Assembly: GCF_004634425.1 (NCBI RefSeq)
Contig: NZ_SBJL01000001.1
Span: forward strand, 531,001 to 595,000
Direction: 5' to 3'
From: Vitreimonas flagellata
GTDB lineage: Bacteria > Pseudomonadota > Alphaproteobacteria > Caulobacterales > Aquidulcibacteraceae
Length of the DNA stretch: 64,000 bases
Positions within the stretch are counted from its first letter, which is position 1. The number at the start of each line of letters is the position of its first letter. Position numbers and translations under genes: made by a program. Positions 24,628-53,310 of this stretch are shown one piece after another. The notes beneath the pieces were generated by a model. It was not told the origin of the DNA and ran no database searches. It saw only the letters and a program-made list of their open reading frames with translations.

Positions 24628-24647
24628 CGGCGCCCAAATTTCACTCC

Positions 24648-24753
24648 GTCATTCCGGCCGGAGGCGCGTTAGCGCCGTAGAGCCGGAACCCCAGGGCCAC
24701 CGCTGCGTCGTTTGCCCTGGGTTCCGGATCGCGCTCCGCGCGTCCGGAATGAC
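24648..24753. repeat. 106-bp nested palindromic intergenic repeat
   Basis: Outer arms GTCATTCCGG (24648-24657) and CCGGAATGAC (24744-24753) are perfect complements. Inside, CCGGAACCCCAGGGC (about 24683-24697) pairs with GCCCTGGGTTCCGG (about 24713-24726) with one base missing. Two small GGCGC/GCGCC-type hairpins flank this. It fills the gap between convergent mazG and ldcA. It resembles the mobile intergenic palindromes of alphaproteobacteria and may also act as a bidirectional terminator. Confidence 0.75.
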
Positions 24754-40813: not shown

Positions 40814-40820
40814 TAAACTG

Positions 40821-40943
40821 CTCCCCCGTTTACGGGGGAGCTGTCACGCACAGCGTGACTGAGGGGGCGCGGCGCACGCAATTGGCGGAGTTTCCCCCTC
40901 CAGCTCGCTACGCTCGCCACCTCCCCCGCTAGCGGGGGAGGAG
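40821..40943. repeat. GC-rich palindromic repeat, full copy 1 (intergenic)
   Basis: The copy opens with CTCCCCCG-TTTA-CGGGGGAG (40821-40840), continues CTGTCACGC-ACA-GCGTGACTGAGGGGG, and closes after a spacer with TTCCCCCTC...CTCCCCCGCTAGCGGGGGAG. It sits between lipA and the COQ10-like gene. The same modules occur at 47205-47318, 49458-49512 and, diverged, at 53185-53310. Confidence 0.85.
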
Positions 40944-40958
40944 TTGGCATGCGCCGCC

Positions 40959-46242: not shown

Positions 46243-47586
46243 TCAGAGCAACATCGCCATCGGGTCTTCCAGGAAGCCGCGGAACGCTTTCAGGAAGGCC
46301 GCGCCCAGCGCGCCATCGACGACGCGGTGATCGCACGTCACGGTCACGCTCATCATTGTCGCGATCGCCAGCGCGTCGTTCTTCACGACCGGTCGCTTTT
46401 CGCCGGCGCCGATCGACATGATCATGCCGTGCGGTTCGTTGATGATCGAGGCGAAACTCTTGATTCCCATCATGCCCATGTTGGAGATCGAGAACGTGCC
46501 GCCCTGAAACTCTTCCGGTTTCAGCTTCTTGGTGCGCGCGCGTTCGGCCAGATCGGCCATCTCGTGCGAGATTTGCGCGAGGCCCTTCGTCTCCGCCGCC
46601 CAGATGATCGGCGTGATCAAGCCGCCCGGTATCGCCACGGCCACGGCGACGTCGGCGTGGTGGTGAACCGCGATGCCGTCCGGCGTGTATGACGCGTTGG
46701 CTTCCGGGACGAGCTTCAGCGCCAAGGCCGCCGCCTTGATGCACATGTCGTTGACCGAAATCTTCACGCCCTTATCGCCGAAGCGCTTGTTGATCTCGGC
46801 CCGCGCCTTCAACAGCGTGTCGATCTCGATATCGATGTTCAGCGGAAAATGCGGCACATCGCGGAAGCTTTCGGTCATGCGCTTGGCGATCGTTTTGCGC
46901 ATCAGATCAAGCGGCACGAGATCGTATGAGCCCGCGCGAATGCCTTGCTGCTCCAGCGTTTTGTGTTGCACGGGCGTTTGCGTAGCTGGCGCTTGCGTCG
47001 CCAGCGCACGCGATTCCAAACGCGGGGGCTCATCCCTGCGCGGCGCTGGCTTCTTCGCAGCCGGCGGCGCCTTCAACGCCGCTTCCACATCCGCCTTCAC
47101 CACGCGCCCATGCGGCCCCGAACCCGCAAGCCCCGAAAGATCAATCCCACCTTGCTCTGCGAGCCGACGCGCCAATGGCGACGCGAGTACGCGCGGTTCG
47201 GATGCTCCCCCGCGCACGGGGGAGCTGTCAGCGCGCGCAGCGGGCTGACTGAGGGGGGCGTTGCGCACTTCCCCCTCCCCTCGCTGCGCTCGGACCTCCC
47301 CCGCTTGCGGGGGAGGAGTTTTCGCAACCGGCTTCGCCGCTTCGCCTTCGCCCGCGAGCGTTGCGATCGGCGTATTCACCTTCACGCCTTGCGTACCCTC
47401 AGCGACCAAAATCTCAGCGATCACGCCTTCATCGACGGCCTCGACTTCCATCGTCGCCTTATCCGTCTCGATCTCGGCGATGACCTGACCCGGCTCGATC
47501 GTATCGCCGACCTTCACGTGCCATTTCGCGAGATTGCCCTCCTCCATCGTCGGAGAAAGCGCGGGCATGGTGATTTGCGTCGTCAT
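46243..47586 (-). CDS. pdhC: PDH E2, dihydrolipoamide acetyltransferase
   Basis: A 447-residue core subunit of pyruvate dehydrogenase. One lipoyl domain (1-78) carries lipoylated K43 in [12 protein letters not shown]; an Ala/Pro/Arg linker (about 79-130) follows; the E1/E3-binding domain (about 131-166) has [11 protein letters not shown]...[10 protein letters not shown]; the catalytic domain (about 220-447) ends with the active-site [15 protein letters not shown]. Residues about 90-128 of the linker are encoded by a 114-bp palindromic repeat (47205-47318) that keeps the frame. The start at 47586 overlaps the upstream gene as ATGA. Confidence 0.96.
47205..47318. repeat. Palindromic repeat inside pdhC linker, copy 2 (full)
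   Basis: A 114-bp element (38 codons) with the same modules as 40821-40943: CTCCCCCG-CGCA-CGGGGGAG, a CTGTCAGCGC hairpin ending CTGACTGAGGGGGG, then TTCCCCCTCC and CTCCCCCGCTTGCGGGGGAG. Read on the minus strand it encodes a linker segment containing [12 protein letters not shown] (residues about 110-121). Confidence 0.85.
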
Positions 47587-48026
47587 TCCGAAGCTCTTTT
47601 CGATTGCAGCGAGACGTTCACGACGTCGGGCTTCCAGCGATGGATAAAGGTCATGTAGCCAAGGGCGGCATAGACGGCGATCATGCCCGCCCACAGCAAC
47701 AAGCGCACGGCGCTATCGATGCCGCTTGAGGCGTTCAGCAATGCGGCTTGGCCCGGGGCCGTGAGTTCGCCCGCCGCCGCCAATTCATGCAGGCGTTGAA
47801 TGAGCCCGTCATGCGCGGTCTGCGCGCCGACCATCAGCACCAAGAGGAGCGCGAGGATCAGCGACACGAACGAGAAAGCGCCAAGGCGCGCGACGAACAT
47901 GGCTTCGCCGACAAAATAATTGAGCGCCACGATGTAGGCGGACACCACCGTGAAGATGATCGACACGCCCAGCAGCAAGAGGCTCATATAGCCGATCAAT
48001 TGCTCGACAACTTCGCCTTCACTCAT
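47583..48026 (-). CDS. Hypothetical membrane protein in pdh operon
   Basis: A 147-residue protein I do not recognise. Hydrophobic helices are visible at about 14-35, 47-68 and 107-126 ([17 protein letters not shown]). An amphipathic/helical loop (about 70-100) lies between the second and third. Gene overlaps are 4 bases with both GFA (upstream) and pdhC (downstream), so expression is coupled to PDH. A role in membrane attachment of the complex would be pure speculation. Confidence 0.75.
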
Positions 48027-48436
48027 GCCGCGGCCTCCGTGAGCTGCATCGGCGTCCAGCGCGCGAGGCGGCGTGCGATGCGTTCGGCTTCGCTTTCGCC
48101 GTCGAGGCTAGCATTGGTTACGGGTTCGTCTTTGAGCTCGGGGATGGCCAGACCAACGACATTGATCACGCCGACAGGGCCGTGCGGGCCTTCCATGTAT
48201 GTGGCGACATAGGCTCCGCATGTCGGGCAGATGAGAAAATCCGCGCTCTTCTGACCAAAGCGATAGCGCGTCAGCTTCGCGTCACTCGTCAGCGCAAGCT
48301 TGCCGTCCGGATCGGACGCCGATTTCACGCCGCGCGACGCGCAGAACGAGCAGCCGTCATGGCGCAGGCGCACCGGCGTCTCCGTCTCATAAACCGCGCG
48401 CACCGCGCCGCAATGACATGCGCCGTGATAGATCAC
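48023..48436 (-). CDS. GFA/CENP-V family zinc protein
   Basis: A 137-residue protein of the glutathione-dependent formaldehyde-activating enzyme-like fold. Zn ligands: C7 and C9 (GACHCG), C29 and C32 (CSFC), C70 and C73 (CPTC). RGVKSASD and the [11 protein letters not shown] strand are family-typical. Formaldehyde-glutathione condensation is the named activity for the family, but most members are uncharacterised. It is wedged between pdhB and a membrane protein with 4-base overlaps on both sides. Confidence 0.88.
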
Positions 48437-49794
48437 CGATACGTCACCGCTTTCACCGCATCGACGATCTTATCCACGCTCGGCAGCGCGAGCGCTTCGA
48501 GATTGGCTGCGTACGCGAGTGGCGCATCGACTTGGTGCACACGCGTCGGCGGCGCATCGAGATAGTCGAACGCCTCAGACGTCACGCGCGCGGCGATCTC
48601 GGCGCCGACGCCCGATTGGCCCCAGCCTTCCTCGACCGTGACGATGCGGTTCGTCTTCTTCACGCTTTCGATAATCGTACCGGTATCCAACGGACGCAGC
48701 GTGCGCAGATCGATCACTTCGGCGTCGATGCCTTCGTCCGCCAATTGCTCGGCCGCCTTCAACGCCAAGCCCACCATGCGCGAATGCGCCGTGATGGTGA
48801 CGTCAGCGCCGACGCGGCGAATCTTCGCCTTGCCGATCGGCACGATCCAATCGGCGACGTCCGGCACCTCGAACTCGACGCCATAGAGCATCTCGTGCTC
48901 CAGAAAGACGACCGGGTTCGGATTGCGGATCGCGGCTTTCAACAAGCCCTTCGCATCGGCCGCATCATACGGCGCGATCACGATGAGGCCTGGAATGTGC
49001 GAGTACCAAGACGAATAATCCTGGCTGTGCTGCGCCGCGACGCGAGAGGCCGCGCCGTTCGGCCCACGAAACACAATCGACGATTTGATCTGGCCGCCCG
49101 ACATATAGAGCGTCTTCGCGGCCGAATTGATGATCTGGTCGATGGCCTGCATGCCGAAATTCCAGGTCATGAATTCGACGATCGGCTTCAAACCCGCCAT
49201 CGCCGCGCCCACGCCGAGGCCGGCAAAGCCATGTTCGGTGATCGGGGTATCGACCACGCGCTCGGGTCCGAACTCATCGAGCAGCCCGCGCGAAACCTTG
49301 TACGCGCCCTGATATTGCGCGACCTCTTCGCCCATCAAAAACACGCTCGGATCGCGGCGCATTTCTTCCGCCATCGCGTCCCGCAGCGCATCGCGCAGTG
49401 TGACCTTCACCATTTGCGTGCCTGGCGTGAGTTCTGGATCGGCGACGCTCAGCGATGCTCCCCCGCGCGCGGAGGCGCTGTCAGCGCGCGCAGCGGGCTG
49501 ACTGAGGGGGGCCGGCGTCTGCTTGGCTTCTTGCTTCGCAGACGCAGCCGCTTCGCCTTCGCCATCCAACACAGCGATCGGCGTATTCACCTTCACGCCC
49601 TGCGCGCCTTCGTCGACGAGCAGTTTCGAGATCACGCCTTCGTCGACGGCCTCGACTTCCATCGTCGCCTTGTCGGTTTCGATCTCGGCAATGACTTGGC
49701 CCGGCTCGATTCTATCGCCGACCTTCACCAGCCATTTCGCGAGATTGCCCTCCTCCATAGTCGGAGACAGCGCGGGCATGAGGATTTGCGTCAT
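48433..49794 (-). CDS. pdhB: PDH E1 beta subunit with N-terminal lipoyl domain
   Basis: A 453-residue subunit. Residues 1-79 are a lipoyl domain nearly identical to that of PdhC, with lipoylated K42 ([12 protein letters not shown]). Residues about 95-113 ([19 protein letters not shown]) are the translated part of a palindromic repeat. The transketolase-like beta domain (about 127-453) has [28 protein letters not shown] and the C-terminal GQSGVGAEI. It forms the TPP site with PdhA. A lipoyl-bearing E1 beta is known in alphaproteobacteria. The start at 49794 overlaps the MAPEG stop (TGATG). Confidence 0.95.
49458..49512. repeat. Palindromic repeat inside pdhB linker, copy 3 (half element)
   Basis: A 55-bp element that matches the first half of the pdhC copy at 52 of 55 positions counted by eye. 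The first hairpin arm has decayed (CGCGGAGGCG instead of CACGGGGGAG), while the CTGTCAGCGC...GACTGAGGGGGG half is unchanged. The second half, present in pdhC, is absent. Confidence 0.8.
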
Positions 49795-50192
49795 CAGGCG
49801 AGAACCCCGAACAGAGCCAGGAAGATGAGCACGCAGGCGATCACGCCGGCGAGCCAGAAGAATGCACGCAGGATCGGCCAGCCGAACGCGTACCAAACCG
49901 CGTGCAGAATACGCGAGAAGAAGAAGATTTGAGCGCCCAGCACGGTCCATTGATTGGAAATGCCGGAGATCGCCGCGATCAGAATGAGCGGCGCGAAGAA
50001 CCAAAGGTTCTCGCGGAAATTGTCGACCAAGCGCTTCATGCGCGCCTGAAACACGGTCGGCGGCTTCAGATTATCGCGATTGTTCATCATCGCGAGCCCG
50101 CCATTGTTGCGGACGCCCGCGCCAGCCTGCACAAACACGACCACGAAAAACAACGCGATCGAGTACGCGAGATATGTAAGTTCAACGCTCAT
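49794..50192 (-). CDS. MAPEG family membrane protein
   Basis: A 132-residue four-helix membrane protein of the MAPEG family (membrane-associated proteins in eicosanoid and glutathione metabolism). It starts [17 protein letters not shown] and contains the [19 protein letters not shown] motif (about 52-70) resembling the ER...NxxENxP block that binds glutathione in eukaryotic members. It could be a glutathione transferase/peroxidase, but substrates are unknown. It sits between pdhA (27-base gap) and pdhB (overlap). Confidence 0.85.
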
Positions 50193-52381: not shown

Positions 52382-52945
52382 GAATAATCCCGCCAGCGGC
52401 CCCAGCGCCGCTTTCGCCCGATCAATGCAAACGCGGCGCCGAGTTCGCCCCATCGGACCGCCGGCTTCCAGCAGGCCTTCCCTGTCCGGTCGATTTTGGT
52501 GAAACCTTCATGCTGATCGTCCGCGTCTGGCCCAATCCGGTCATCCCGTGGCGCGTGCCAATCTCTCAAGGCCAGCGGCTGCCGCGCTGCGAACTTCAGT
52601 ATTGTCGTCATCTAGGGCGCGCTCGAAAACCGGCTTGGCTCTGGGATCGTCCAGGATCATGAGTTGATGGTTGGCCCTGGCGCTCGCGCCGCCGCTGCCA
52701 AAGCCGCGCCCAATCCAGCTGCCCTTAATCTACACGACGATAAAACAGCCCGCGCCGCCGCGCGAACGCAGCACTGAGCGCGGCCACGCCTTTCGCCTCT
52801 GGCCGCGCGCGAAACCACATCCCGCGCGCATCCGCCTGCCCGGCAAACCACAAACCCGCGCCGGGCTCGAACGCGACAGCCTCTATCAAGCGCAACTTGA
52901 AAACCTTAAGCGCGCCTGCGCCGTTCGTTGCCGCCGGTGCAGCGT
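52382..52945. other. About 560 bases without a convincing gene
   Basis: No open frame here resembles a known family or has a good ribosome site. The best candidate is a minus-strand 77-codon frame at 52378-52611 (MTTILKFAARQPLALRD), which overlaps the 52381 start as ATGA but has no visible Shine-Dalgarno and a Trp/Arg-rich composition. On the plus strand, 52671-52949 is open but Pro/Arg-rich. The stretch probably holds decayed coding sequence. Confidence 0.5.
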
Positions 52946-53171: not shown

Positions 53172-53184
53172 GCTGAGTTTCGTG

Positions 53185-53310
53185 CTCACCCGATAGGGGA
53201 GCTGTCAGGCGTCAGCGTGACTGAGGGGACGGCGCCGCTGCCCGCAGAATTTCGCACCCGCCCCTCCATCGCGTGCTCGGCACGCACCACCTCCCCCTCA
53301 CGGGGGAGGA
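53185..53310. repeat. GC-rich palindromic repeat, diverged copy 4 (intergenic)
   Basis: CTCACCCGATAGGGGAG, then CTGTCAGGC-GTCA-GCGTGACTGAGGGG, a spacer, and CTCCCCCTCACGGGGGAG (53291-53308) follow the order of modules in the copy at 40821-40943. It lies just downstream of eno on the minus strand and may serve as its terminator. Confidence 0.75.

Follow-up and report, generated by a model that had tools for sequence, protein, structure and literature searches.

Dispersed palindromic repeats lie in frame within lipoyl-domain linkers of Vitreimonas flagellata and its relatives

Several families of short palindromic repeats are known from bacterial genomes, and the cited accounts describe them as follows. 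Rickettsia palindromic elements (RPEs) and similar Wolbachia repeats measure about 105-146 bp and occur between genes as well as in frame within conserved genes (PMC2229807, PMC10969869). In-frame palindromic repeats reached an unusual level in Rickettsia, and a 2024 review presents a comparable route of protein evolution in other prokaryotes as merely conceivable (PMC10969869). The Caulobacter CIR repeats are hairpins of about 110 bp found in Alphaproteobacteria (PMC2229807); they contain GANTC, are strictly intergenic and carry stops in all six frames (PMC2229807, PMC10969869). ERIC/RU-1, RU-2, NEMIS and other bacterial MITEs are non-autonomous and can be translated within a protein (PMC2229807), and REP elements are 20-40 bp long (PMC3733652). 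Our literature search, with thin coverage of subscription journals, found no prior report of palindromic repeats in lipoyl linkers.

The window, a stretch of 64,000 nucleotides from V. flagellata, contains pdhC and pdhB (Table 1). The pdhC product matches Pfam Biotin_lipoyl, E3_binding and 2-oxoacid_dh and scores above the cut-off of NCBIfam TIGR01349, and pdhB scores above that of NF008854. In a tree of 20 rows (12 named rows from 80 loci) its E1 beta groups beside Caulobacterales with a fork support of 90. AlphaFold, given 16 rows, produced a low-quality model of E1 beta (mean pLDDT 42) that is uninformative on linker disorder.

The original prediction had placed a palindromic repeat in frame in pdhC and a half copy in pdhB, and its coordinates, frame and identity (52 of 55 bases between 47205-47259 and 49458-49512) all hold. 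The segment 47205-47318, flanked by CTCCCCCGCGCACGGGGGAG and CTCCCCCGCTTGCGGGGGAG, lies within the open E2 frame. The placement of a 114-bp element there was correct but its length was slightly short: the pdhC copy spans about 118 bp, and members of this family, which we call family A, measure about 118-130 bp. The element has strong predicted hairpins, and its predicted fold joins one end to the other by base pairing, giving the terminal inverted repeats typical of MITEs. A profile built from 15 family A copies outside the window (E <= 0.01) found four places within it, at 40819-40944 (92 bits), 47203-47319 (62 bits), 53183-53310 (35 bits) and 49456-49511 (17 bits), and no fifth; the first and third recover the family members predicted near 40821-40943 and 53185-53310. 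The third is crossed by a 510-aa open run on the + strand, at most a putative gene. Across the whole window, Rfam at gathering scores returned nothing besides two tRNAs.

Table 1. Positions of the host genes, their lipoyl-domain stretches and the family A copies within the window
Feature	Position	Strand	Remarks
pdhC, pyruvate dehydrogenase complex E2 (lipoyl, E3-binding, acyltransferase domains)	46243-47586	-	translation, Pfam, NCBIfam
pdhC lipoyl-domain coding stretch	47336-47585	-	85% identity to pdhB 49547-49796
pdhC linker, full family A palindromic element	47203-47320	+	encodes 39 residues on reverse complement
pdhB, E1 beta with N-terminal lipoyl domain	48433-49794	-	translation, Pfam, NCBIfam
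pdhB lipoyl-domain coding stretch	49547-49796	-	sequence comparison with pdhC
pdhB linker, half family A element	49454-49512	+	encodes 20 residues on reverse complement
family A copy	40819-40944	+	not crossed by any open run >120 aa
divergent family A copy	53183-53310	+	profile match; absent from the 34 BLAST places

The segment 47180-47340, used as a query at E <= 0.001, matched 34 places in its own genome, far beyond chance; the pdhB half was found at E = 2.8e-20 and the best other own-genome copy at E = 1.9e-30. Family A matched in at least 27 of the 30 genomes of the genus, the own genome counted; this count, like those below for B, C and E, is a minimum, since no more than 29 candidates were scored per genome and the match lists were truncated. 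The repeat is thus dispersed both in its own genome and among relatives. Genes were called at 31 of the 34 places (pdhB, pdhC and 40819 were left out): seven are spanned by a called ORF, five overlap an ORF end and 19 are intergenic. Six of the seven spanned places were judged sound, five of them with Pfam domains; L009, L016 and L019 do not count among the sound coding copies, as they have either a weakly supported gene call or an element situated at the ORF start. Besides pdhC and pdhB, in-frame copies occur in the genes for a bkd-like lipoyl E2, MutL, UvrC, KsgA and an Lhr-like helicase. In KsgA, relatives have a shorter loop at the insert site; of 28 loci, one was extracted by its motif and searched by profile, the remainder and the family names in relatives being judged by eye, and the own-genome copy is family A.

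All sound coding copies of family A in this genome share one orientation, and the excluded L009 has the opposite one. Stops do not account for this bias. In 15 copies, 31 of the 90 frames (six each) are open. We considered a distinct coding subfamily and rejected it, as the identity among coding copies (0.844; 10 pairs from five full-length copies) was close to that among intergenic copies (0.837; 105 pairs) and between the two classes (0.842; 75 pairs). Differences within the element number 56, 36 and 66 at codon positions 1, 2 and 3, summed over non-independent pairs, a weak sign of constraint at the protein level.

The original prediction had captured part of a wider phenomenon. Five dispersed repeat families, A, B, C, E and F, occur in the genus; one segment is common to A and C. 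With queries taken from linkers, matches were found in at least 24 of 30 genomes for B, 22 for C (some of them owed to the segment common with A) and 29 for E, and in five of five chosen genomes for F. Four lipoyl-protein genes have repeat-occupied linkers: pdhB, pdhC, a bkd-like E2 (a working label, as it passes no NCBIfam cut-off) and E2x, which falls below every NCBIfam cut-off and adjoins a 773-aa ORF with an E1-beta-like part. With a threshold of 15 bits, profiles made from copies located elsewhere matched 42 of 97 linkers (13/25 in pdhB, 7/23 in pdhC, 7/26 in the bkd-like E2 and 15/23 in E2x), against none of 147 controls, the highest of which reached 10.8 bits. Likewise, stems of at least 8 bp were present in 39 of 97 linkers versus 21 of 485 catalytic windows. 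Different families occupy the same linker site in different genomes, and on the tree the linker states of the four genes imply a minimum of 10, 7, 6 and 8 changes.

Several relatives have linkers free of the repeat, which argues that the repeats are insertions. The opposite reading is that an ancient coding linker merely resembles the repeat or that the repeat spread outward from the linker. The refuting case proposed originally, in which all relatives would share the peptide and the repeat would not be dispersed, is contradicted. The common frame and similar ends of the family A peptides in pdhB of four relatives (G013, G003, G012 and G026) suggest that the insert may be old. However, at the 15-bit threshold the profiles miss 12 of 25 linkers in pdhB and 16 of 23 in pdhC, several families share one site, own-genome copies lie mostly outside called genes, and coding copies are as near to intergenic copies as to one another. 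We therefore regard an ancient linker as very improbable. Misplacement of repeats in the pdh genes by assembly is more improbable still: some contigs do stop within a linker (contig C100 of G018 starts inside that of pdhC) and the pdhB element of G022 has a broken frame, but the inserts are present in near-complete genomes (G002 in one contig, G003 in five) and in the chromosome of Mesorhizobium sp. AR07, a record titled complete genome, and the frames are intact. This strain, outside the genus, has a dispersed repeat in two E2 linkers, in GlyS (twice) and in a UvrD-type helicase, and in a Caulobacteraceae MAG pdhB and pdhC each contain a copy of a dispersed repeat peculiar to that genome. At named loci outside the genus, linkers were extracted at 127 of 160 with a wide motif (50 with a narrower one).

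Not every lipoyl linker accepts repeats. The true sucB, a fifth lipoyl gene identified as an NCBIfam equivalog, had a repeat in none of 26 readable linkers (28 fetched, two unreadable), compared with 42 of 97 for the other lipoyl genes (Fisher p 4e-6). The proposal that the linker tolerates extra residues is supported but incomplete; since sucB was never hit in 26 genomes, tolerance alone is insufficient. Linkers of pdhB average 63.9 residues with a repeat versus 53.4 without, a gain below the 40 or so codons that an element adds; part of the former linker must therefore have disappeared as well. Those of pdhB and pdhC stay at 46-70 residues irrespective of origin. This constancy, together with the strong predicted hairpins, the single orientation of own-genome coding copies and the repeat-free sucB linker, would also fit inserts with a function of their own: the RNA hairpin might, for instance, slow translation between domains, or selection might favour a flexible linker of fixed length. 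We consider retention for function improbable, as many relatives do without the repeat and inserts are found also in MutL, UvrC, KsgA and GlyS.

How the pdhC copy arose is a closer question. It may derive from the pdhB element by recombination of the similar lipoyl regions, with pdhB later losing half, and we rate this just short of an even chance. The half region of pdhC is nearest to pdhB of G013 and to its own pdhB (56/59 each), followed by pdhB (54/58) and the bkd-like E2 (52/55) of G003, and the best sampled non-linker copy reaches 49/56. G013, the nearest relative, has a full family A element in pdhB, and its pdhC carries family B; pdhC of G022 has no profile match; and the lipoyl regions of pdhB and pdhC share 85% identity. 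Against this, the identity of B and C lipoyl regions in one genome (72-88%) is lower than that of C to the best C of another genome (83-94%), so conversion left no clear trace; we sought lipoyl-domain gene conversion and saw no clear signal. Over the full length, non-linker copies match the pdhC copy at 103/115 and 105/118, and G013 pdhB matches it at 110/119. In the Caulobacteraceae MAG the pdhB copy has five nearer matches in other places (90-93%) than the pdhC copy (89%). In the favoured reading the pdhC copy postdates the divergence from the closest relative sampled, whether by insertion or by copying from pdhB.

Taken together, we think it very probable that mobile repeats insert widely and that tolerant linkers retain those copies which keep the frame. 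The segments in pdhC and pdhB are copies of dispersed family A, which some enzyme would have moved from elsewhere into the genes. Repeats would land at many places and selection would remove most copies inside genes, with stop-free in-frame copies surviving, as neutral passengers, where a linker is flexible, most clearly after lipoyl domains. The GC-rich palindromes would translate to peptides rich in Pro, Ala, Gly, Ser and Arg that may substitute for the usual Ala/Pro-rich linker; linkers could therefore turn over by insertion, decay and replacement. REP elements are mobilised by Y1 transposases (RAYT). The Y1-type family PF01797, the single mobilising-enzyme family sought, had no match in the own genome but did match in 5 of the 14 control genomes; its absence counts against the mobile-repeat explanation, and we rejected a RAYT-moved REP on the same result.

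The present in-frame repeats occur in Alphaproteobacteria outside Rickettsiales and in genes of central metabolism and repair; several families share the same sites, close relatives are repeat-free and one sister linker is never hit. Given in-frame repeats in this genome and other repeats in relatives' connectors, lipoyl connectors seem to be sites at which stray DNA can be turned into protein. A broader proposal, which we hold tentatively and at somewhat less than even odds, is that certain lipoyl linkers are entry points in Alphaproteobacteria, where several families of dispersed palindromic DNA become protein and renew central-metabolic linkers; the orientation preference and the spared sucB might then point to a rule of insertion or expression. 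Such repeats may be neutral passengers or may furnish protein sequence, a question that can now be tested.

Compared with known repeats, CIRs are similar in being hairpins of like size in Alphaproteobacteria, but as described they differ from the present repeats, which have coding copies. GANTC occurs in 0/15 profile copies of A, 0/10 of B, 0/10 of C, 2/10 of E and 0/7 of F; its absence from family A, the coding copies and the open frames led us to reject CIR membership. REPs are likewise palindromic and present in many copies, yet they are far shorter than the 118 bp seen here, in a genome without PF01797. ERIC/RU-1, RU-2 and NEMIS belong to other hosts and are set apart by description, the accessible part of their account not mentioning reuse of a linker by several families. 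The predicted resemblance to RPEs holds for behaviour, compared by description: family A is a dispersed palindrome of comparable size, in frame in the conserved genes pdhC, pdhB, bkd-like E2, mutL, uvrC, ksgA and lhr-like. The differences are a host outside Rickettsiales, GC-rich repeats and the sharing of individual lipoyl-linker sites by several families. By this likeness of behaviour, the repeats described here work like RPEs, in Alphaproteobacteria outside Rickettsiales.

We compared the segments that follow the lipoyl domain (linkers) of pdhC and pdhB, and both carry a copy of the palindromic repeat family A. The two copies are as alike as the original prediction had it (52 of 55 bases, over the coordinates it proposed), and both lie inside the open frame. 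At both ends of the pdhC stretch there are hairpins of the form CTCCCCC(n)GGGGGAG, and a strong fold is predicted whichever strand is taken.

Coordinates of the pyruvate dehydrogenase genes and of palindromic elements (window positions unless a contig is named)
Feature	Position	Strand	Remarks
pdhC (E2)	46243-47586	minus	translation, domains, name over NCBIfam cut-off
pdhB (E1 beta with own lipoyl domain)	48433-49794	minus	translation, domains, name over NCBIfam cut-off
Family A, full element	47203-47320		in pdhC, between lipoyl domain and next domain
Family A, half element	49454-49512		in pdhB, between lipoyl domain and next domain
Family E palindrome (ATTCCGG..CCGGAAT type)	24647-24753		crossed by no open run >120 aa
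Family F palindrome, one arm only	52451-52480
Family F palindrome (CCGGCTTCCAGCCGGC type)	G000 C3:30407-30492 (L205)		in linker of E2x, which is under all NCBIfam cut-offs and beside a fused E1

As had been proposed, the element is dispersed: with 47180-47340 as query we found 34 places in the V. flagellata genome (G000; E <= 0.001), and matches in 27 of the 30 genus genomes, its own included (at least 1 to 37 each). Around 31 of these places (pdhB, pdhC and the copy at 40819 excluded) genes were called with a simple codon model trained on the window; 19 copies were intergenic, five overlapped an ORF end and seven were spanned by a called ORF, one of them (locus L009) doubtfully. The other six lie in a bkd-like second E2 (in its post-lipoyl linker), MutL (between the N- and C-terminal parts), UvrC (within the region that the RNase H domain model hits), an Lhr-like helicase, KsgA (directly ahead of NLPYN) and a small ORF without Pfam match. 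With pdhB and pdhC, 8 of the 34 places are thus sound in-frame coding copies, three of them in lipoyl-protein linkers. Intergenic copies (L010-L038) often lie no more than 20 bp from a called gene, and only 1 of the 19 examined lies between divergent genes.

All eight sound coding copies point in the same direction relative to their gene, whereas of 13 copies between tandem genes five take that direction and eight the opposite one (Fisher p 0.007); of the 24 copies not spanned by an ORF, 19 supplied these 13, and three fragments and two copies at ORF starts were excluded. When the doubtful L009, L016 and L019 are included, 10 of 11 coding copies share one direction. Genus linkers with family A as best match carry it on the same strand in 14 of 15 cases, many via common descent. 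Stop codons do not explain this bias, because the two strands have nearly the same number of open frames (16/45 vs 15/45).

The original prediction had called for a comparison of orthologues, and across the genus we read the linkers of pdhB, pdhC, the bkd-like E2 and E2x, another E2 whose neighbour is a fused E1. They are plain and Ala/Pro/Lys-rich in some genomes and hold family A or other palindromic peptides in others. In all, 97 linkers of these four genes were run against profiles built from copies at other places (15 copies for A, 7 for F and 10 each for B, C and E); for A the copies called as in-gene were excluded, for the others copies were taken irrespective of gene context. Four of the 97 linkers had themselves been queries for gathering copies: pdhB of genomes G018 (family B, matches in 24/30 genomes) and G009 (C, 22/30), and E2x of G016 (E, 29/30) and G000 (F, 5/5 genomes that we chose); the family A search started from pdhC of G000. 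Matches of at least 15 bits were found in 42 of the 97 linkers, and the controls, made up of 50 catalytic-domain DNAs and reversed versions of all 97 linkers, scored 10.8 at most. Stems of at least 8 bp, which require no family model, occurred in 39/97 linkers vs 21/485 equal-length catalytic windows, a comparison of related rows whose Fisher value is therefore no true probability. Families A and C have a ~40-bp segment in common, so that some family C matches are A copies, and many B and F matches are a single arm. Copies of family C in full length (L240-L249) are 82-90% alike between species of the genus, suggesting that the element is either conserved or recent.

Linkers with a repeat profile match or a stem
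Gene	Profile match	Families	Stems >= 8 bp
pdhB	13/25	A 6, B 6, C 1	13/25
pdhC	7/23	B 4, A 2, C 1	10/23
bkd-like E2	7/26	A only	13/26
E2x	15/23	F 8, E 7	3/23

The fifth lipoyl gene, true sucB, was fetched from 28 genomes (L316-L343). None of its 26 readable linkers matched a repeat profile; every one is plain and Ala/Pro-rich, and four have stems of at least 8 bp. Against 42/97 for the other lipoyl linkers this gives p 4e-6, on related rows. In V. flagellata itself family A is present in pdhB, pdhC and the bkd-like E2, and family F in E2x; sucB, the last of the five lipoyl-protein genes examined, has no repeat. Being a lipoyl linker does not by itself suffice.

In a tree built from the catalytic parts of E1 beta and E2, G000 has G013 as its sister, and G022 comes next. 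Family A is present in pdhB of all three, and of G003, G012, G026 and G029 (opposite strand in G029). The pdhC linker of G000 has A, that of G013 has B, and that of G022 matches no profile. In the single-contig genome G022 the pdhB frame is broken inside the element (L095), by sequencing error or a real lesion. The minimum number of linker-state changes was 10 for pdhB, 7 for pdhC, 6 for the bkd-like E2 and 8 for E2x, with states that we assigned from profile matches (G022 added) and 10 of the tree's 25 inner branches weakly supported. Empty sites are provided by the KsgA loop: GDAL to NLPYN, read by eye with spelling variants included, spans 20-22 residues in 16 of 28 loci (L270-L297), 24-26 in three and 30-44 in six (G000, G002, G011, G013, G018, G026), and three loci are broken across frames or contigs. 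This loop is another shared site, where several species have repeat-like inserts of differing kinds.

Outside the genus, 80 named loci gave 127 of 160 possible linkers. Only L150 and L100, the latter with an E1 beta that groups with the genus, reached 15 bits against the genus profiles; these families are therefore not general. Stems of at least 8 bp occurred in 20/127, several being plain Ala/Pro repeats. In a Caulobacteraceae MAG (L102) one palindromic peptide is common to the pdhB and pdhC linkers; the pdhB copy has 59 matches in the 2.3-Mb MAG, five of which (90-93%) are closer to it than the pdhC copy (89%). The E2 linker repeat of Mesorhizobium sp. AR07 (L150) has 111 matches in its genome, mostly single arms, and its four other full-length places all lie within genes with the frame kept: one in a second lipoyl E2, one in a UvrD-type helicase and two in the glycyl-tRNA synthetase beta chain. 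That single glyS beta gene (L309) holds two in-frame copies of one palindromic element. The E2 linkers of two other Mesorhizobium loci (L140, L170) hold no repeat.

Most likely, these repeats insert at many places as mobile elements, and in-gene insertions would be kept where frame and fold permit. A GC-rich palindrome would be translated into a Pro/Ala/Gly/Ser/Arg-rich peptide, near the usual composition of these linkers. Mean linker length is 63.9 residues with and 53.4 without a repeat in pdhB, and 61.1 and 53.9 in pdhC; old linker is therefore lost as the new one arrives. Protein-level constraint on the inserts is weak at best. As candidate mover we sought one family, the Y1-type transposases (PF01797), which is absent from the V. 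flagellata genome.

In the open-access literature that we searched, no earlier description of palindromic repeats within lipoyl linkers turned up. In-frame palindromic repeats as such are already known: PMC2229807 and PMC10969869 describe them in Rickettsia and Wolbachia, and MITE-derived frames in enterobacteria and Neisseria. The Caulobacter CIR repeats, by contrast, are reported to be strictly intergenic, whereas the repeats of this genus also lie in genes.
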